DNA from: an uncultured Bacteroidales bacterium
GTDB lineage: Bacteria; Bacteroidota; Bacteroidia; Bacteroidales; Muribaculaceae
DNA length: 64,000 bases
Direction of reading: 5' to 3'
NCBI GenBank assembly: GCA_947072905.1
Contig: CAMTKF010000001.1
Coordinates: forward strand, 62,001-126,000
The notes below the pieces were generated by a model. That model had not been told where the DNA came from. It did no database searches and saw only the letters and a program-made list of their open reading frames with translations. Positions within the stretch are counted from its first letter, which is position 1, and each line of letters opens with the position of its first letter. Below, one piece after another: positions 30,355 through 41,206 of the stretch. Made by a program: the position numbers and the translations under genes.

Positions 30355-30858
30355 TTATTTAAACAATTTCTGGAAAATCAGGGCGTCGGCATACTCGGTC
30401 TTTCGCCTGAGCCAAGAGCGCAATCGGCCGGCAGGTTTGAATCCGGCTCCGGTAAACAGCGCTTTGGAGGCATCATTGTCTATTGCCACATAAGCCCATA
30501 ACTGGTGCATGCCGAGAGTGCGTATGACGTATGCCTCAAATATCTCCAAGGCCTCTTTTGCATAGCCCTGGCGGCGGCGCGACTCATCAATATAAATACC
30601 GACTCCGGCTCGGCGGTTGACAGGATCAAAGTCAAACATGTCGATATGTCCGACAACCGCATTAAGCGATTCGTCATTTATCATCATGCGCAGTTCGCGT
30701 GTGCTGAAAGGATCAGCCTGATAGTTCTTGATGTATTCCCACACCTGATAGCGCGACAAAGGGGCGCTCTGTGGCAGGGATTCGTTAAAACCGGGGTCGT
30801 TTTCCCACAGGAATATGCTGTCGACATCGGTCTGTTCGGGGGCTCGTAAGGTAATCAT
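30355..30858 (-). CDS. GNAT family N-acetyltransferase (RimJ/RimL-like)
   Basis: RAGVGIYIDESRRRQGYAKEALEIFEAYV acetyl-CoA binding motif. Confidence 0.88.
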   Translation of the reverse strand: MITLRAPEQTDVDSIFLWENDPGFNESLPQSAPLSRYQVWEYIKNYQADPFSTRELRMMINDESLNAVVGHIDMFDFDPVNRRAGVGIYIDESRRRQGYAKEALEIFEAYVIRTLGMHQLWAYVAIDNDASKALFTGAGFKPAGRLRSWLRRKTEYADALIFQKLFK

Positions 30859-30869
30859 AGCATTATGAA

Positions 30870-31499
30870 TTAAGAATCAAAGGGACGGCGGTCGAGAATA
30901 GATCGTCCTAAGGTAAGCTCATCAGTGTACTCAAGCTCATTACCCACAGCCACACCACGCGCAAGTCTGGTCACTATAAGATTTTCGGGCGAATTCTGCG
31001 TAAGATTTCTGTAGATATAGTAAGCCGTTGTATCGCCTTCCATCGTGGGGCTGAGGGCCAGAATCACTTCATCAATCTCAGGATTTGCCTTCACACGGCT
31101 TACCAAAGACGCTATTTCAAGACGATCTGGACCTATGCCATCAATAGGCGAAATCACACCTCCAAGCACGTGATACAAACCGGTGAAACGGCCTGTACGC
31201 TCCACGCTCAGCACGTCGCGAACATTCTCGACCACACATATCTTGCTGCGGTCGCGACGACTGTCGGCGCAAATAGGACAAAGTTCGGTTTCGCTGATAT
31301 TATGACATTCACTGCAATAGCGTATACCCCGGCGCAAGTCTATAATGCTTTGACCGAGAGCCACAGCCTCGCGCTCATCGCGCCTGAGCATATACAGAGC
31401 CAGGCGCAAAGCTGTTTTCCTGCCCACTCCGGGCATCCTTGAAAGCTCCGTTACAGCCGATTCAAGCAATTTAGATTGAAACTCGTTTTCTGAAGTCAT
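30870..31499 (-). CDS. recR: Recombination mediator RecR
   Basis: [20 protein letters not shown] Hh[17 protein letters not shown] zinc finger, TOPRIM; start set to MTSENEF. Confidence 0.95.
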
Positions 31500-32409
31500 T
31501 TTGATACATTTTTTTAACATACCTCACAGTGGTGTCCCAATAAGGGAAACGCAGTGTAAGCATATTGCCGCCCGAGATACTGACTGTGGCATCGGTATCC
31601 ACCTTTGTACCGTTCATGTCATACCAATCAAGATTGTATATATCATCAAAACCGGTATTATAAAAACGACCTTTAATAGCCAAAGGTTTCCATATATGCC
31701 TTATTTCATTGTCTGTCGAGCGGATGAATATTATTTCATATCCCTCATCAACTGCCGGCACAACGGCTATGGTATAACGCACTTTAGATGATACTCTGAG
31801 TGCCGGTGAATCCTGATCGTAATGATCCCAGACACCAACTATAGGGTCCCGGCTTGATGAGATATAGTCATTCAAAGCTTCCAAATCTCCAAAACGGCAT
31901 TTTTCTATATCGGGGGCCGCAACAATCTCCACATCCTCGCGCAAAGGCTTGGATTTGCCGGTATGCACCACTTCATAATAAATTCCATTTCCTTTGATAT
32001 TGAAAGTATGATTGAAGAGCGCTTCAGTCTGGCCAAACTCTATTTTAATGCGCCCCGGTTTCACAAGCGAGAGCCTGAATGAAAGTCCGTCGCGTTTCTT
32101 GTCGTGTTCATACAGTGGGAATGTAAGCGTTGAATCCTCTTTTTCCACACCGTCCTTGAATGTGCTGATTCTGAGATTTACAAAATCGCGATTAAAAAAA
32201 TCATATCCCGAATCTTTATTGACTGTTGCCATGAACTGCTTGTAACCGGTAGTAGAGTCTTCCTCAGCAACCTTTAGGATATATTTTGTTTTTTCCTCAA
32301 CAGGCATACGATGATGCACCCTGAGCCATGAGGTGGTTACGGGAATACGCTGCCATGCCTGCGCCATAATTGCCATCAAGCAAAATAATGTCGTCAGAAG
32401 GCATTTCAT
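31471..32409 (-). CDS. Secreted protein of unknown function
   Basis: Signal peptide [18 protein letters not shown]; no recognised domain; overlaps the recR 5' end. Confidence 0.6.
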
Positions 32410-33320
32410 AATCCTGTTATAGACCTTACTCTGTTTACAAATTCCTCCCTGTCAAGATTGTAAGGCAACCATTCGATATGATGGCCTCTGCGCTCCATAC
32501 CCCTGAACCATGTCATCTGGCGTTTGGCGAACTGATGTATGGCTGTCTCAAGCCCGCTGAACATCTCTTCGTATGTAGTAAGGCCGATTAAATGTTCGGT
32601 AAGATATTTGTATTCAAGACCATAATAAATGAGATCTTCAGGCGCAACGCCCTCAGCCAAGAGCCTGCGCACCTCGTCGAGCATGCCGCTGTCAAGGCGC
32701 TTGCGCAGTCTTTCTGATATGCGCGAGCGACGTTCATCGCGCGTGATGTCCACTCCTATCACAACTGCATTTTCGATAGGGTGAGGCAAAGCCTTGACTG
32801 CCTTCTTGGGATGTTCGTTGTAATAGGTCTCTATTTCAATAGCTCTGATGGCGCGTTTCACACTGTCAACATCTGTAGTATTGTGAAGATTTTTCATTGA
32901 AGCAAGTATGCCTGTAAGCTCCTCGAGCGATTTGTCGGCAAGTTCATTGCGCAATGATTCATTGCATGGCACTTCCGGAAGGACAAGGCCATTGAGCAAA
33001 GCTTCAACATACATGCCTGTGCCGCCAACAATTACAGGCAACCTGTCGCGACTGCGTATATCATCTATCGCAGCGTTGGCATCGCGCAGATATTCATACA
33101 AGTTATACTTATATCCTGCGGGCGCCATATCAATCATGTGATACGGTACATCGCCATATTCCTCAAGGTCTTTTCCTGTACCAAGATCCATTCCGCGGTA
33201 AAGCTGCCGAGAGTCGGCGCTTACAATCTCTCCGCCAAAAGCCCGGGCACAATCTACGCCCCTTACAGTCTTTCCTGAGGCTGTAGGACCCACGATTGCC
33301 AATGTGCTTACCTGCTTCAT
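32406..33320 (-). CDS. miaA: tRNA dimethylallyltransferase
   Basis: IVGPTASGKTVRGVDCA, ISADSRQLYRGMDLGTGK, KRQMTWFRGM. Confidence 0.95.
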   Translation of the reverse strand: MKQVSTLAIVGPTASGKTVRGVDCARAFGGEIVSADSRQLYRGMDLGTGKDLEEYGDVPYHMIDMAPAGYKYNLYEYLRDANAAIDDIRSRDRLPVIVGGTGMYVEALLNGLVLPEVPCNESLRNELADKSLEELTGILASMKNLHNTTDVDSVKRAIRAIEIETYYNEHPKKAVKALPHPIENAVVIGVDITRDERRSRISERLRKRLDSGMLDEVRRLLAEGVAPEDLIYYGLEYKYLTEHLIGLTTYEEMFSGLETAIHQFAKRQMTWFRGMERRGHHIEWLPYNLDREEFVNRVRSITGL

Positions 33321-34594
33321 CAGAATTTTGAACCTGTTATCTTGTGCCAGAAACGACGGGTACGGAAAAACGGGCGGTCCTGATTATTGTTGGATATTGC
33401 AAACCAACTGACATCATTGTAATCAACATTCCAGTTCTTAAGATCGCGCAGACGGAATGTAGGACGATAATGTTTTATAGGATACAGACGACGACCCTCG
33501 GTGTCGTATGTTTTCCAAGCCATCGTAATAGTGAAGATTCTGTATATCTCATCAGTCAATTCGGCTGAGAGACGAGCAGTCTTGATCATTCGGTCGAGCT
33601 GGTCGAGTGTAAACCATGTACCCTGATCTTTAACAGAAGGATAGTCCTCGGCTTTTACAAATGCGGCATAGTGCTTCATCTGAGGCAATATGTCGCTAAG
33701 ACTTGTTTCGTAAAGATAACGTAATTCGAAATCCTTACATCCGGAAATATTTTCAAAAGCCTTTTTGACCGCCTCATCACTGATATTGTCAAGCTTGGAA
33801 ATCTGAGTTACAGCAGGTGTATCCCAGCGGTCATGCTCATTTAGGGTGAGCAGCATTCGGTCATCAGACAGTACTATATATCGAATTACAGTTCCTGAAT
33901 TTTTAGCATTAAAAGCAATCGGGCCTATGACAGCTGCAATATTGCCACAGCGGTTCCATACGAAATAAAGCGAGAATACATACAGGGCTACCGGCATCCA
34001 TGTGAAGAAGAATACATCGGGTGTATTCATATTCACATTTATATAATACTTGAAGTAATACCACCACTCAACCGCGCTCATACCGGCCGAGATGAACAGC
34101 ATGAGTTGTACCTGATAGTGCGATTCGCGCCTGTACAGTGAGCTTATAACATTATTGGCCGATGTGCTCACACCATTGCGCAACAGTGAGGTATTGCGCA
34201 GCATTATCCACAGGCTCATCACTATCATCACTGGAAATACTACCAGCGATGTAATATAAGGTATCTGTTTATTGATATTTGACTTGTCTATAAACTGCTC
34301 AAATACAGGATGTGCATTCAATATATTTATTGCAAGCATTACCATAGAAGACCAAAACAACGTGAGTATTGACACACTCAGCATCACCGTGCTTCCGGGT
34401 ACACTATATGAGGTACGGCGTCGCAGTACTATAAGCTCGATATATGCAAGGATGAATACCGGAAATGGCAACCATACCTTAGGCACAATTCTCGAAAGAA
34501 TCAGCACTACCGCTATAAATCCGAATGCTATCGCCCAGTTGGCCCATAGCGACAGCATCAATGTATGAGTATTCTTTCCACTATTATATTGCAT
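33320..34594 (-). CDS. Multi-TM protein with a C-terminal soluble domain, function unknown
   Basis: Several N-terminal hydrophobic helices followed by about 180 soluble residues. Confidence 0.6.
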   Translation of the reverse strand: MQYNSGKNTHTLMLSLWANWAIAFGFIAVVLILSRIVPKVWLPFPVFILAYIELIVLRRRTSYSVPGSTVMLSVSILTLFWSSMVMLAINILNAHPVFEQFIDKSNINKQIPYITSLVVFPVMIVMSLWIMLRNTSLLRNGVSTSANNVISSLYRRESHYQVQLMLFISAGMSAVEWWYYFKYYINVNMNTPDVFFFTWMPVALYVFSLYFVWNRCGNIAAVIGPIAFNAKNSGTVIRYIVLSDDRMLLTLNEHDRWDTPAVTQISKLDNISDEAVKKAFENISGCKDFELRYLYETSLSDILPQMKHYAAFVKAEDYPSVKDQGTWFTLDQLDRMIKTARLSAELTDEIYRIFTITMAWKTYDTEGRRLYPIKHYRPTFRLRDLKNWNVDYNDVSWFAISNNNQDRPFFRTRRFWHKITGSKF

Positions 34595-34600
34595 GATTTA

Positions 34601-36787
34601 TCATAGATTTTTATTAAACCAATCGAGCATCTTTCCATAAACAACCGAACGTGCATTGCAGCCGTTGATAGAATGGTTCATGTTCGGGAAAATGAGCATA
34701 TCGCATATATCGCCTTGTCTTTCGAGGCGCGATACAAATTCGATTGAATTGGCAGGATGAACATTGTCGTCGGAAGTTCCGTACATTATCAATAACGGAC
34801 ATTTGAGACGAGATGTTCTCATAAGAGGCGCCGAACGGCGATAACCGTCTTCATTCTGCTGAGGTGTCAGCATATATCTTTCGGCATATACTGTATCGTA
34901 GAAGCGCCAGTCGGTGACAGGAGCTACAGCTACGGCTGCAGCATAAGGAGCATCATCGGCAGTGGCAGCCATCAGAGTTTCATATCCACCATAGCTCCAA
35001 CCGAATATACCTATTTTATTGGCATCAACGTAGGGCAACGAGGCTGCATAGCGGGCTGCGGCTATCTGGTCAATGGTTTCATAATGGCCGAGATTCTTGT
35101 ATACCACATCGCAGAAAGCGCGGCCACGGCCACCGGTGCCACGACCGTCGACGCATATCACCACATAACCGGCTTGCGCGAAAGCATCCATCCAGTCAAG
35201 CTGCCAGCGATTGAGCACTTCCTGCGAGCCGGGTCCACTGTACTGGTACATGATACACGGTGACTTCTGCGACTTGGCATTTGTGGGACGGATTATAAAA
35301 CCGTTGAGTGTGACGCCTTCGCTCTGCATGGTGAAAAATTCGCGCTTTGCGACCTTGTTGCCCACTCGTGCCATGTATGCCGAGTTGTCTTCAAGCACTC
35401 TTACTTCCTTGCCGGCCGAGGTATTGATGGTATATACCGGAGCCTGCTCGGTAGAGCTGTATGTTTTGGTCATATAGGTGCAACCCGGGGCGAATTGAGC
35501 CGAAGATGTACCCTTGTTGGAAGATATGTCGGTAGATATACCCTTGCGGTCAATTTTTCTGATAGTCCTGTCCATGGGAGTAGGCGCAGCTACCTGATAG
35601 TAGTGGTTGCCGAGCGCATCAGAGCCGTAGTAAGCCGTAACATCGCATTCATCCTTGGTTATCTGACGCATCTCAGCTCCCGCGTATGTATATTGATACA
35701 GCTGGTTGTAACCTGATTTCCACGAATTAATGATAAATGAATCCTTTCCAAGCCATAGAGATTCGTATGTTACGGGATCAATCCACGACTTTGAATCCTC
35801 ATTATATATGGATTTGGCTACTGTAGACTTGGGATTTACGCGATATATTTCAAAATGGTTCTGGTCGCGGTTGAGCGTAGACACTATCAGGCTTTCAGGA
35901 TTGGGTCCGTAGGCTATGCGCGGAATATACTCTATGCGATTGTCGGGCAGAGTTATTTCCTTGAGTTTGCGGGTCTCTACATCGTAGCTGTGGAGACTTA
36001 CCTTGGAGTTGGGTTTGCCGGCTACGGGATACTTATAGTTCCATACTTTGGGATAAAGTGCAGCCGACTCATCAGGATTGCAAGCACCTTCATAGCGCAT
36101 CATATCGTAAGTGGGCACATCCGTCTCGTTATATTTTATGAAACAAAGGTTCAAATCGTCGGGAGCCCAAGCCATGGAAACGGTTGTCTGGAATTCTTCC
36201 TCATAAACCCAATCGGGCACACCGTTTATCACTTTGCCGTATGCGCCGTCTTCGGTCACGGCTACCTCTGTCTGATAATCGAGCTTGCGAACATAAATAT
36301 TGTTATCCTCGCCCACGAAGGCCACCATTCTGCCGTTTGGCGAGAATATGGGTGCCTGCTGAACTTTGAATTTACTTGATAGCGGACGCAGCAGTCGCGT
36401 ACGGATTTCGTAAGTATAATATGAAGCGCGGAACGAACGGCGGTATATATAATTGGCGCCGGTCCATACAAGGATTTTAGAAGCGTCGCTGCTCAGAGTG
36501 AATCCCTCAATGCGGTCGAGCGTATTCTCGCGAGTGTTCGACAGGTCGATAAGTACTTCTATTTCCTTGCCGGATTTTATATCGTATTTCACCACTTTTT
36601 TACCATCGGCCGACAGCATTGCATACGACTGACCATCGGGCATATATGTAAATCCTACCGGACGCGATGCTACATTGTCGGGGTAAACGTATCCGGCCAT
36701 ATCGCGCACTGACTGATTGGCAGCGTATGTTCCGGAAGCTGATAAAATTGTTGCGAATAATGTTATGGCTTTAATTGTATTTTTCAT
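34601..36787 (-). CDS. S9 family peptidase, dipeptidyl peptidase IV-like
   Basis: GRGTGGRGRAFCDVVYKNLG, IGIFGWSYGGYETLMA catalytic Ser, C-terminal GTSDDNVH and NHSI. Confidence 0.93.
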   Translation of the reverse strand: MKNTIKAITLFATILSASGTYAANQSVRDMAGYVYPDNVASRPVGFTYMPDGQSYAMLSADGKKVVKYDIKSGKEIEVLIDLSNTRENTLDRIEGFTLSSDASKILVWTGANYIYRRSFRASYYTYEIRTRLLRPLSSKFKVQQAPIFSPNGRMVAFVGEDNNIYVRKLDYQTEVAVTEDGAYGKVINGVPDWVYEEEFQTTVSMAWAPDDLNLCFIKYNETDVPTYDMMRYEGACNPDESAALYPKVWNYKYPVAGKPNSKVSLHSYDVETRKLKEITLPDNRIEYIPRIAYGPNPESLIVSTLNRDQNHFEIYRVNPKSTVAKSIYNEDSKSWIDPVTYESLWLGKDSFIINSWKSGYNQLYQYTYAGAEMRQITKDECDVTAYYGSDALGNHYYQVAAPTPMDRTIRKIDRKGISTDISSNKGTSSAQFAPGCTYMTKTYSSTEQAPVYTINTSAGKEVRVLEDNSAYMARVGNKVAKREFFTMQSEGVTLNGFIIRPTNAKSQKSPCIMYQYSGPGSQEVLNRWQLDWMDAFAQAGYVVICVDGRGTGGRGRAFCDVVYKNLGHYETIDQIAAARYAASLPYVDANKIGIFGWSYGGYETLMAATADDAPYAAAVAVAPVTDWRFYDTVYAERYMLTPQQNEDGYRRSAPLMRTSRLKCPLLIMYGTSDDNVHPANSIEFVSRLERQGDICDMLIFPNMNHSINGCNARSVVYGKMLDWFNKNL

Positions 36788-36794
36788 AATTCAG

Positions 36795-38207
36795 TTAGAA
36801 AAGCGATAATTGATCAGGATTGTTGATCTGTGGAGCCTTGCGGCGCGGAGCTCTGTAGCCGAAGTCGGCTTCAGATTCAGACGGGCGCATTGAGGGTGTC
36901 TCGGCCGGAGGGGTCTTGGTAAACCACTCTCCGCTTTCAAATGTTTCCTCCATTGCACAGAGGTCGTCTTCTGAAATACGTGGTGCGGTTTCTTCAGCTA
37001 CCGCCCCGAAGTCCACCTGCATTTCAGCCACAACTGTCGGAGGTCTCAATGCGCTGATCTGCGATTTGAGCGACTTCTCGCGTTCGGCGTTCTTGCGTTG
37101 GTTCTCGGCTATGGTTGCTTTAAGGCTGTCGATCTCAGCATCTTTCTGACCTATAGTTTTCTTTTGGGTTTTTACTTTTTCGGTGAGGCGTGTCATCGCC
37201 TGATCAAATTCTCCAAGACGTCTTGTAACTTCGTCATAGTCCTTGAGCAGGTTGTTCAGTTCCTCTATTTCTTTTGTTTTAGATATATTTTCGTCTTTCA
37301 ACTCCTGAAATCGGGCTACAAGAGCTGCAAGTTCGTTTTCTTTTTCTTTAAGACCTTCATTTGCCTTATTAAGCAATTGCTTTTCGGCATCGAGAGCTTC
37401 GGCATGACGTTTGCGCAAATCCTCGCGTATTTCTTCCGAAACTCTGATCTGCTCTTTCATTGATGCTATACCCTCGCTCATTTCTTCTATCTGCGAAGTG
37501 AGCTCATTCTCGCGTTTGGCAAATGCCGAGTCGGGATTTTTTCGCAGCTCGTTCAACTCCAGATTCAGGGCCTGTATGTCAGCCTGCGCCTTCTCAAGGT
37601 CTTCCTGCTGCACATTGGCAACCTTTATACGGTTGACGAGCGAGCGGTTTTCGAGTTCGTATTGTTCACGTTCGCTTTCGAGTTTGGCCAGCTGCGATTC
37701 AAGGTCATGCACGCGCTCGGTAAGCGCACGTTTCTGGCGGTCTGCACTCAGTTGCTTCTGCTTGATATCGCTCGACTGTTTTTCTATTTCACCGGCCTTG
37801 ACTTTCAAAGCATCAAGCTCGGCCGCCATTGAGCTTTGGCGGGCTTTCCATTGGGCATCGCAATATGCTTCTGCCGCTACTCCTATCGAAGCTAAATAAT
37901 CTTTGATTCCCTGATCGAGCGAGTCAAACAAAATCTTGCGTTGTATCTCCTGATTTACAGCTTTACCTATAAAATCGGGCAATGAAGTATCTACCACCTC
38001 AACCACCTTCGCAAATATTTTTTCCTGCATGGCAGGATCAAAAGTTATCGGCTCTAACTGTTGGGGCGAAATGGCTTCATTATCTGCCTGAGGTTTTGAC
38101 TCCTCTGTTTCTTCTCCGGCAGCAGTGTCTTCATATATTGAATCGTATTCTTCCGTTTCGTCAGGGCCGAAACCTAACGACCGTTTTATTATTGATATGA
38201 TGCTCAT
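36795..38207 (-). CDS. Long coiled-coil protein, function unknown
   Basis: Extended heptad-like Q/E/K/L-rich region; 4-nt overlap with the upstream PPDK-like gene. Confidence 0.65.
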   Translation of the reverse strand: MSIISIIKRSLGFGPDETEEYDSIYEDTAAGEETEESKPQADNEAISPQQLEPITFDPAMQEKIFAKVVEVVDTSLPDFIGKAVNQEIQRKILFDSLDQGIKDYLASIGVAAEAYCDAQWKARQSSMAAELDALKVKAGEIEKQSSDIKQKQLSADRQKRALTERVHDLESQLAKLESEREQYELENRSLVNRIKVANVQQEDLEKAQADIQALNLELNELRKNPDSAFAKRENELTSQIEEMSEGIASMKEQIRVSEEIREDLRKRHAEALDAEKQLLNKANEGLKEKENELAALVARFQELKDENISKTKEIEELNNLLKDYDEVTRRLGEFDQAMTRLTEKVKTQKKTIGQKDAEIDSLKATIAENQRKNAEREKSLKSQISALRPPTVVAEMQVDFGAVAEETAPRISEDDLCAMEETFESGEWFTKTPPAETPSMRPSESEADFGYRAPRRKAPQINNPDQLSLF

Positions 38208-41206
38208 GGTTCAGATTCAGGTTTATTATCAACATCGGGCCGCGGCAGTGCCACAATGCCTACTCCGGCTCTTCCGTTGATTGCAATTGTCAATGGGTGT
38301 TCAAAACGTACTACTCTGATATAACCGTCGTCGTACTCGGCCGGCATCGAATCAAGCAGTGCTGTTTCGTAACGTGCTTCTTTGATTTTTGGATCAATGG
38401 TAAAATACCCCACTCCAAAAGATGTGAGATTATGGAAAAAGTGTGTTCCCTGGCTCGGTTCAACCCTATAATTCTCGAGACCGGCCTCTACAATCAGGCG
38501 CGATGCCGAAATATCGGCCCACTTTACGGGTATGCCAAGCGCCGGATCAGACGAGCCCCAACGCCCCGGGCCTATAAGGATATAATTCTCGCCTCGGGCA
38601 AGAAATTGTCTATTCAATTTTTCAATTTCTGGCACAAGTTCCCGGTTGAGTGCCGAGTCAAATACGTCGGGTTTAACGTAAACTATCGTAGATATACCTT
38701 CCACACTGCCGTTGCCGATTGCTGTAGTACTCCTTAGTATGATCTCCTCGGAGGGTATGGCATCGAGCATTGCATCTGTTATCAGCTCCTTACGGTCGAT
38801 AATCGGGCGTATCTGCAGCCAATAAATGTGACCTTTATCGTCAGAGCCGGCTGCATCAGGCTTGATATTGCCGGCAAATTCTATCTCAATGGGACGCTGC
38901 ATGGCAGCCTGACCGTTGTGTAGCATAAAATCTATGGCTGACGCCAAAGGGAATACCTTGTCGCGCAGCACATTGGCAAATGTAACTACCCTTCGGCCGG
39001 AACCTTGCTCATAATCTTTAAGATAGCCGTCGCGCGCATCGTAGGTTGAGACAAGGTAACGCAAGTCGCCCGTATTGGCGAAGTCCTGCACCGATCGGCT
39101 TACTATGTTATATGAATCGTCTATTGTGACGTCGATATCCTTATCTATTGTCGCAGGCAGCGCACACAGTTTGGTCTGGGTCTGTTTAAGAGCCAGATCA
39201 AGAGTGGATGTCTGCAATACATGATCGGGATGACGTGGCGAGAAACGCAGGCCCACACCACCGTCCACTATATACTTACCAAGACCTATCGCTATCTCTG
39301 CCACTCCGTCCTCCGGCGTCTCATCGCCCAAGGGGTAATAGTTAAGCGAGCGCCCTACTCCCGAGAACGACGGGAAATACAGGCCTCCGCGGTCCTCACC
39401 GATTACTTCCTGAATTATGACGGCCATCTTTTCCTGATCAATAATATTGGATGTGGCAGTCATATATGCTTTGCTTGCCTTGTAGAACACCGAGGCATAT
39501 ACACCTTTTACCGACTCGGTGAGCATACGCAGACGCTCCTCGCGGTCGGCTGTATAAGGCACCATATAGGTGGCATATATACCGGCAAACGGCTGGTAAT
39601 GAGAGTCTTCAAGCAGACTTGACGATCTTATGGCCAGGGGGCGGTCTATCACATCAAACAAAGCCATGATATCCTCTCTGACTCTTTCGGGCAGACGGGC
39701 TGCAAGAAACCGTTCGAGTATCTCCTCATCGCGGGCATCACTCAGAGCTATAGGATACAGCTCGTTGGCAGCCATGAATTCATCAAATATGTCTGTACAC
39801 AGCACCACAGTGCGCGGAATGGAAATAGAGGCGCCCTGAAAGTTGTCGCATACCGGATTTATCTTGATAATTGAGTCAATGAATGCAAGGCCACGGCCTT
39901 TACCGCCGAGCGAACCTTGCCCGATGCGGGCAAAGTTTGAATATCGGTCGAATCTGTCGCGCTGATACACCGCCACAACGCCGCGGTTCTTCATCTTGCG
40001 ATATTTCACAATAAGATCGAAGAACAATTGCTTTACCTCGGCGGCATCTTCAATGTTGCGGAAACGGTGACGGCGTATGACATCGGCTACAGCGAATATC
40101 GCTCTTGAATACAACCACCGCGACACATCATTGTGAATGCAGTGATACAACAGAGCCTCGTCAGGAATGTCAAAAATACGTTTTTGCAAATCCTTAAGCT
40201 CGTGAATGCGCATTATCTCCAGTCCGGTATGCGGGTCTTTGATTACGAAATCTCCGAAACCGAAATTTGACATTATGGCTTTGCCAAGATCTACGGGCAG
40301 CTTTTTGGAATTCTTATCAAGGAACACCCCGCCAATGCGTTCGACATCGGCCGCATTCTCAACCTCGCTCGATTCTATAATCAAAGGTAAAGTAGGATCT
40401 TTTTCGCGAAGATATTCGGCAAGACGTATTCCGGCTTTGGGGTCTTTTACACCGCCACGCGCAAACGATACGTCTGAAATAACGCCCAGCATATTCTCGC
40501 CGAATTTCTCATACATCGCCACGGCTTCCTCGTAGTCGCGGGCGAGCATCACCTTGGGTCGGCCACGCATTCTGAGCATGCGCTCGTGGTCGTTGAGTGC
40601 CTCAGTAGAAAATTCGCGGCTCTGCGTGAGCAGGAATTTGTAGATGTGCGGTAGTACGGAAGAATAGAATCTTACAGAATCCTCCACCACCATAATCATC
40701 TGTACTCCTACCTGAGTGATGTCCTCGGCGTTCATCTTATCCTCAAGAAGCTTTATTATGGCAAGCAGCAGATCCATATTGCCCAACCATGAGAACACAT
40801 AGTCTATATTGGATAAATCTGAATTGGCAAGCCTGCGCGAAACCTCTTTGGAGAACGGAGTCAGCACCACCAGCGGTGTCTCGGGCGACAGAGCTTTCAG
40901 AGTCTTGCAACCTTCAAAGCATTCGGCCAGCTCAACTCCGGGCATGATTATGGCCAAATCATAGTGATGAGATCTCATAGCCTCAACGGCGGCATTCATG
41001 TGCGATACTCTGGTGACACGCGGCGGCGAACTGAGATTGAGCGACACATATTCCATATACAGCTGCTCATCAACACGACCGTCCTCCTCGAGCATGAACG
41101 CATCATAGCGCGATGCAACGAGCAACACATTAAATATGCGACGCTGCATCAACTTGTCAAAGGCTGTATCTTTCAAATACAATCTGCTGAGTGATTGATC
41201 ATCCAT
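38204..41206 (-). CDS. Two receiver-like domains fused to a PEP/pyruvate-binding (PPDK N-terminal) ATP-grasp domain
   Basis: VVEDSVRFY ... GVISDVSFARGG ... SSEVEN ... FLDKNSKK receiver residues; PLAIRSSSLLEDSHYQPFAGIYATY PPDK signature. Confidence 0.85.
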   Translation of the reverse strand: MDDQSLSRLYLKDTAFDKLMQRRIFNVLLVASRYDAFMLEEDGRVDEQLYMEYVSLNLSSPPRVTRVSHMNAAVEAMRSHHYDLAIIMPGVELAECFEGCKTLKALSPETPLVVLTPFSKEVSRRLANSDLSNIDYVFSWLGNMDLLLAIIKLLEDKMNAEDITQVGVQMIMVVEDSVRFYSSVLPHIYKFLLTQSREFSTEALNDHERMLRMRGRPKVMLARDYEEAVAMYEKFGENMLGVISDVSFARGGVKDPKAGIRLAEYLREKDPTLPLIIESSEVENAADVERIGGVFLDKNSKKLPVDLGKAIMSNFGFGDFVIKDPHTGLEIMRIHELKDLQKRIFDIPDEALLYHCIHNDVSRWLYSRAIFAVADVIRRHRFRNIEDAAEVKQLFFDLIVKYRKMKNRGVVAVYQRDRFDRYSNFARIGQGSLGGKGRGLAFIDSIIKINPVCDNFQGASISIPRTVVLCTDIFDEFMAANELYPIALSDARDEEILERFLAARLPERVREDIMALFDVIDRPLAIRSSSLLEDSHYQPFAGIYATYMVPYTADREERLRMLTESVKGVYASVFYKASKAYMTATSNIIDQEKMAVIIQEVIGEDRGGLYFPSFSGVGRSLNYYPLGDETPEDGVAEIAIGLGKYIVDGGVGLRFSPRHPDHVLQTSTLDLALKQTQTKLCALPATIDKDIDVTIDDSYNIVSRSVQDFANTGDLRYLVSTYDARDGYLKDYEQGSGRRVVTFANVLRDKVFPLASAIDFMLHNGQAAMQRPIEIEFAGNIKPDAAGSDDKGHIYWLQIRPIIDRKELITDAMLDAIPSEEIILRSTTAIGNGSVEGISTIVYVKPDVFDSALNRELVPEIEKLNRQFLARGENYILIGPGRWGSSDPALGIPVKWADISASRLIVEAGLENYRVEPSQGTHFFHNLTSFGVGYFTIDPKIKEARYETALLDSMPAEYDDGYIRVVRFEHPLTIAINGRAGVGIVALPRPDVDNKPESEP

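Follow-up and report, generated by a model that had tools for sequence, protein, structure and literature searches.

A two-receiver protein with a PPDK-type ATP-grasp domain in Muribaculaceae: gene linkage to glutamate dehydrogenase in its relatives and a coiled-coil partner with a predicted sliding-clamp motif

Introduction

A 64,000-nt stretch of DNA from an uncultured Muribaculaceae bacterium (contig CAMTKF010000001.1, positions 62,001 to 126,000; here called the window) carries a gene for a 1000-aa protein (38204..41206) in which two receivers (REC) of the two-component type precede the ATP-grasp domain of pyruvate phosphate dikinase (PPDK_N) and a C-terminal domain. The stop of this gene overlaps by 4 nt the start of a second one, which encodes a 470-aa coiled-coil protein (36795..38207); both genes, and all features described below, lie on the minus strand. 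The locus raises a twofold question: what could be the output of such a response regulator, and what has the coiled-coil protein to do with it? An earlier note, made from the letters of the window, had reported the two open reading frames, their strand and their overlap, and both were recovered as it had given them. The answer that we favour, tentatively and at slightly under even chance, is that the 1000-aa protein acts as a response regulator with a PPDK-type ATP-grasp phosphotransferase as output, that its ancestral target would be glutamate dehydrogenase (GDH) or 2-oxoglutarate metabolism, and that its partner in Muribaculaceae would be a separate coiled coil docking on the sliding clamp.

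Domain organization of the 1000-aa protein

The AlphaFold2 model of the protein (mean predicted local distance difference test, pLDDT, 84.4) displays two receiver folds, a helical linker, an ATP-grasp domain and a C-terminal domain; its top Foldseek matches are tandem-receiver proteins (PleD, 3luf) and PPDK (1ggo, 5lu4). Conservation was scored on an alignment of 52 homologues, with identities to the window protein down to 36-43%. Receiver 1 (residues ~24-160; 40727..41137) is a pseudo-receiver: Pfam gives a Response_reg match of 24.8 bits at residues 61-121, under its cut-off, and the phospho-acceptor position, 88, is M or T in 49 homologues, I or W in the others and Asp in none. Receiver 2 (residues ~168-316; 40259..40705) is canonical, with E175, D245, S279 and K298 in 52/52 homologues and D176 in 50/52, and is matched by the tandem-receiver structures. 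The linker to the ATP-grasp domain (residues ~337-406; 39989..40198) was placed from the secondary structure of the model; the equivalent region of a 1171-aa paralogue gives a sub-threshold match to DUF5752.

The ATP-grasp domain (residues 432-807; 38786..39913) is recognized by Pfam as PPDK_N with an E-value of 5e-37. Six of its residues, K436, R527, E774, E776, Q798 and R800, are invariant among the homologues and were matched by motif (GGKG, RSS, EIEF and LQIRP) to the ATP-grasp set of PPDK and rifampin phosphotransferase (RPH), K436, the GGKG lysine, being the only one to appear in a profile alignment, and a weak one. The catalytic set apparently is complete; Lys22 and Arg117 of RPH are important in its first phosphotransfer step (PMC4844700). 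Neither a phosphoenolpyruvate (PEP)-utilizer domain (PF00391) nor a PEP/pyruvate TIM barrel is matched by Pfam in the protein, the chain of which stops after a C-terminal domain of ~185 aa. We looked for a split partner that would supply the PEP-utilizer, as the earlier note had proposed. The source genome (a 2.69-Mb assembly of 94 contigs, with its closest named relatives in Muribaculaceae and a single full-length REC-PPDK gene) encodes a separate 906-aa PPDK, and the sole PEP-utilizer found in the genome belongs to it; by that search, therefore, there is no split partner.

The earlier note's view of the protein has stood up well: a first receiver without phospho-Asp, an intact second one, a PPDK-type nucleotide-binding domain, and neither phosphohistidine domain (none recognized by Pfam, hhalign or Foldseek) nor barrel (none recognized by Pfam). 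The genome's separate PPDK also supports its notion of a receiver-gated orphan ATP-grasp enzyme outside the standard PPDK and PEP synthase roles. What it overlooked are the conserved C-terminal domain, the GDH context of relatives and the clamp motif of the partner.

Distribution of the family

The system is less novel than that note supposed, since the REC-PPDK architecture was already mentioned in 2015 and 2018, in the passages found of PMC4395418 and PMC5847659, and the window protein belongs to these known response regulators of Bacteroidota. The family is present in 130 of 149 Bacteroidales genomes. At E<=0.001, matches occur in 44 of 198 genomes phylum-wide, some of them receiver-only, and in 286 of 297 Muribaculaceae genomes, where some are only weak receiver-type matches, mostly in genus g250. 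Many Bacteroidales have a second paralogue of 1150-1200 aa, 35-38% identical and often in tandem; in four such tandem loci a region of ~150 aa, GAF-like by eye and with no Pfam match, precedes the two receivers, PPDK_N and the C-terminal domain. Although the enzyme is near-universal in Bacteroidales, which are major human-gut bacteria, no function for it and no functional study of its family were found in the open-access literature searched. For this widespread protein of known architecture, the GDH linkage and the partner with its clamp motif are what is new here.

Glutamate dehydrogenase as neighbour and possible target

Gene neighbourhoods were compared in the 80 loci closest to the window, in 25 loci of a phylum sample, and in 29 and then 20 further Bacteroidales loci; common ancestry links these loci, which makes their counts non-independent. 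A GDH gene adjoins the enzyme gene in 20 loci of the phylum sample, and in 19 of these it lies directly upstream on the same strand. Adjacency was also found in 6/29 Bacteroidales loci, with orientations differing from those of the phylum sample, in 5/20 of the further ones, and in four of five loci picked mostly for tandem paralogues. Parabacteroides distasonis and Phocaeicola massiliensis have GDH on both sides of the enzyme gene; Prevotella sp. oral taxon 299 has none adjacent to it within 7 kb. Two loci show the order 2-oxoacid:ferredoxin oxidoreductase alpha, beta, enzyme, GDH. Because GDH proximity recurs in different orientations, it suggests, among loci sharing descent, that selection keeps the two genes close, and the neighbourhood as a whole points to a 2-oxoglutarate/glutamate node under receiver-gated control. 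Directly downstream of the enzyme, three loci carry a gene for a PAS-HisKA_3-HATPase histidine kinase (two by Pfam, the third by eye); in the former two, this kinase is the expected phosphate donor for receiver 2.

The control of ammonia assimilation in Bacteroidales is said to differ from that in model bacteria. In Bacteroides thetaiotaomicron, GDH activity reportedly depends on one or more trans-acting genes downstream of gdhA, work from 1996 credited to Baggio & Morrison, and the segment needed is said to have been of ~3 kb, about the size of a REC-PPDK gene. The recurrent neighbourhood of GDH and KGOR makes a specific, testable prediction, which may bear on that observation.

The same linkage could reflect membership of a pathway and not regulation of GDH, if the protein were a receiver-switched metabolic phosphotransferase whose substrate, as for RPH and PEP synthase, is a small molecule. 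Its intact ATP-grasp set and its closest solved relatives, which are small-molecule dikinases, argue for this, as does the fact that RPH, with an ATP-grasp and a His domain, modifies a substrate other than pyruvate (PMC4844700). However, a substrate-binding domain of the PEP/pyruvate-barrel kind is not recognized by Pfam, and the receivers and neighbouring kinase suggest regulation, so that we rate this alternative as somewhat unlikely.

The coiled-coil partner and its C-terminal motif

The coiled-coil protein is for the most part fast-diverging; three parts of it are kept, namely the N-terminus, the stretch 151-199 and the C-terminal pentapeptide. The N-terminal segment, MSIISIIKRSLGF (38169..38207; MSFFxxLKRAFGF in the family), is a possible amphipathic helix, with a hydrophobic moment of 0.457 versus a background of 0.279 (standard deviation 0.15), 14% of the background being higher. 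The middle stretch, KQLSADRQKRAL..DLE..LESEREQYELENRSLVNRIKV (37611..37757), was defined by per-column conservation in the alignment. The C-terminal QLSLF (36798..36812) is a predicted sliding-clamp-binding motif, both from its conservation and from the published consensus, which is QL[S/D]LF, or more generally QxxLF, and often C-terminal (PMC12309361, PMC4549789). The form Q[LM]xL[FW] ends 51 of 56 full-length partners versus none of the 539 other genes of the same loci. Proteins of the genome do not generally end in this way: a genome-wide scan gave seven matches versus 10 in the reversed control, with exact QLSLF only in the coiled-coil partner. The Y-family polymerase of the genome was dropped as a calibrator, its C-terminus showing no clear motif. 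The partner is thus put forward as a possible new clamp client, and the family that carries it is represented mainly by uncultured genomes.

Might the pentapeptide be some other C-terminal docking signal? All the evidence is of sequence, and position 5 is W in about a third of the family members, versus the usual F. The other positions speak for the clamp, exact QLSLF being found in 12 members and Q at position 1 and L at position 4 in all 51; the C-terminal placement is likewise typical of clamp motifs (PMC12309361, PMC4549789). A different docking signal therefore seems unlikely. The notion of an SMC/MukB or anti-phage defence protein was rejected, the similarity being at the coiled-coil level only, in a protein of 470 aa with no ATPase head domain found. 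At one other locus, the gene beside the enzyme on its downstream side resembles RNase HII by eye and ends in QPRLF, a QxxLF-type clamp motif.

The C-terminal domain

The C-terminal domain (residues ~808-990; 38237..38785), unannotated so far, was predicted in isolation with a pLDDT of 88.9. It contains two of the best conserved stretches of the protein, GPGRWGSSDPxLGIPVKW and PSQGTHFF; the His of the latter, H922 (38441..38443), which starts a helix (922-929), is invariant in the 52 homologues and kept in four distant relatives. By eye, its secondary-structure elements follow one another as in a phosphohistidine swivelling domain, H922 lying between two strands where a helix begins. Homology is unsupported: Pfam gives no match in the window protein and no PEP-utilizer support over 55 members, hhalign against Bacteroidales PPDKs and against 45 PEP-utilizer segments failed to support it, as did a PDB profile search, and Foldseek of the isolated domain against the PDB returned no significant match (best E 0.04, unrelated folds). 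Because profile and structure searches were negative, the domain was not filed as a diverged PEP-utilizer, and the likeness is kept as an analogy.

This lack of a detectable match to known phosphohistidine domains would suit a protein in which the ATP-grasp domain merely senses ATP/ADP and which acts by binding, for instance by holding GDH active, with no phosphotransfer. Such a sensor is decidedly unlikely, as six catalytic-type residues and H922 have stayed invariant over all 52 sequences.

The ATP-grasp and C-terminal domains form a mobile module. Four distant receiver-less proteins keep PPDK_N and the GTHFF domain, two of them with a C-terminal region that looks nucleotidyltransferase-like by eye, and several genomes of the same phylum have receiver-less forms of ~580 aa (34-40% identical over about 410-985) beside forms of ~1065 aa.

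Separability of the two genes

The earlier note had coupled the enzyme to the coiled coil. Direct pairing, often with the 4-nt overlap, holds for 49 of the 80 loci closest to the window; the association is therefore not chance, though not universal, and a genome may retain or lose one gene regardless of the other. The coiled-coil gene is kept in 10 g250 genomes, and in two others, that lack a full enzyme match; the ten have no enzyme match beyond weak receiver-type ones, and each of their coiled-coil proteins ends in QMSLF followed by 0-1 residue. In several g262 genomes the reverse holds: the enzyme is present and no partner was detected. An obligate pair is thereby rejected, and the obligate form of the two-protein phosphotransfer system that had been suggested is unlikely for the same reason. 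Loss of the enzyme gene leaves the clamp motif in place, so the two functions can be separated; the partner has a function of its own, probably clamp-related, and its joining to the enzyme in one operon is specific to certain lineages. The coupling is an addition centred on Muribaculaceae, with a few related families: in f67 (two genomes), f99 and f127 the partner likewise ends in a clamp-type motif. Six loci of other Muribaculaceae have, after the enzyme, a short coiled coil of 170-276 aa with no clamp motif, most ending in DW..P.

A single dedicated complex of the two proteins, by which the replication fork of Muribaculaceae would be coupled to nitrogen or energy status, is very doubtful: the adjacency and the clamp motif favour it, but each gene occurs alone and the core of the partner evolves fast.

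Proposed mechanism and its weak points

In the reading that we prefer, a histidine kinase would phosphorylate D245 of receiver 2, the Asp-less receiver 1 serving as a fixed interaction or dimerisation module. Phosphorylation of D245 would release the ATP-grasp domain, which would then transfer a phosphate of ATP either onto H922 or straight onto a partner. The ancestral target would be the 2-oxoglutarate/glutamate node, most likely GDH itself. In Muribaculaceae, the enzyme gene would have left the GDH locus and entered translational coupling with the gene of a coiled-coil protein that functions separately and would dock on the DnaN sliding clamp via its QLSLF-type motif.

Besides the shared descent of the loci counted, four points weigh against this proposal. 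First, GDH lies within 6 kb of the enzyme gene in none of the 80 closest loci, Muribaculaceae having lost the linkage. Second, GDH still adjoins the coiled-coil gene in one genome that lacks the enzyme, with ~480 nt between the two and no significant remnant of the enzyme, which seems to have been deleted from there. Third, neither hhalign nor Foldseek identifies the C-terminal domain as a phosphohistidine domain. Fourth, the trans-acting gene(s) of 1996 need not be the REC-PPDK gene: BT_1971 of B. thetaiotaomicron is a catalase, and a locus-tag search yielded nothing on the REC-PPDK enzyme. A wider version, in which a new ATP-grasp phosphotransfer domain lets a two-component output switch GDH or 2-oxoglutarate metabolism while the Muribaculaceae form, coupled to a clamp-docking scaffold, ties nitrogen or energy state to the replication fork, is highly improbable.

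As to the other genes of the window, a DPP-IV/S9 peptidase gene (34601..36787), present in 34/80 closest loci, follows the coiled-coil gene after a 7-nt gap, and tight spacing continues through genes for a predicted membrane protein, MiaA, an unknown product, RecR and a GNAT acetyltransferase (30355-38207 with the coiled coil). The peptidase, membrane-protein and MiaA genes also recur 3' of the coiled coil in relatives.

Comparison with known systems

Known REC-PPDK proteins, or ALR-associated PPDKs, likewise have one or more receivers, one of them Asp-less, fused to the PPDK ATP-binding domain (PMC4395418, in the passages found); those passages and the ones from PMC5847659 give no function, C-terminal domain or gene neighbours for them. 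Like the trans-acting gene(s) of the 1996 work, the REC-PPDK family stands near GDH in Bacteroidaceae and Tannerellaceae. With PPDK, PEP synthase and RPH, the window protein shares the PPDK_N ATP-grasp domain and its Lys/Arg/acidic/Gln-x-Arg set; unlike them, it has no recognizable PEP-utilizer His domain, PEP/pyruvate barrel or rifampin-binding domain, and where they have theirs it has another conserved domain, placed straight after the ATP-grasp domain as in PPDK. As for the partner, the C-terminal QL[S/D]LF pentapeptide is common to it and to sliding-clamp clients such as PolC (QLSLF) and the IS1634-family transposases, but the partner has no polymerase, nuclease or transposase domain and is coiled coil only, with an N-terminal segment that is conserved.

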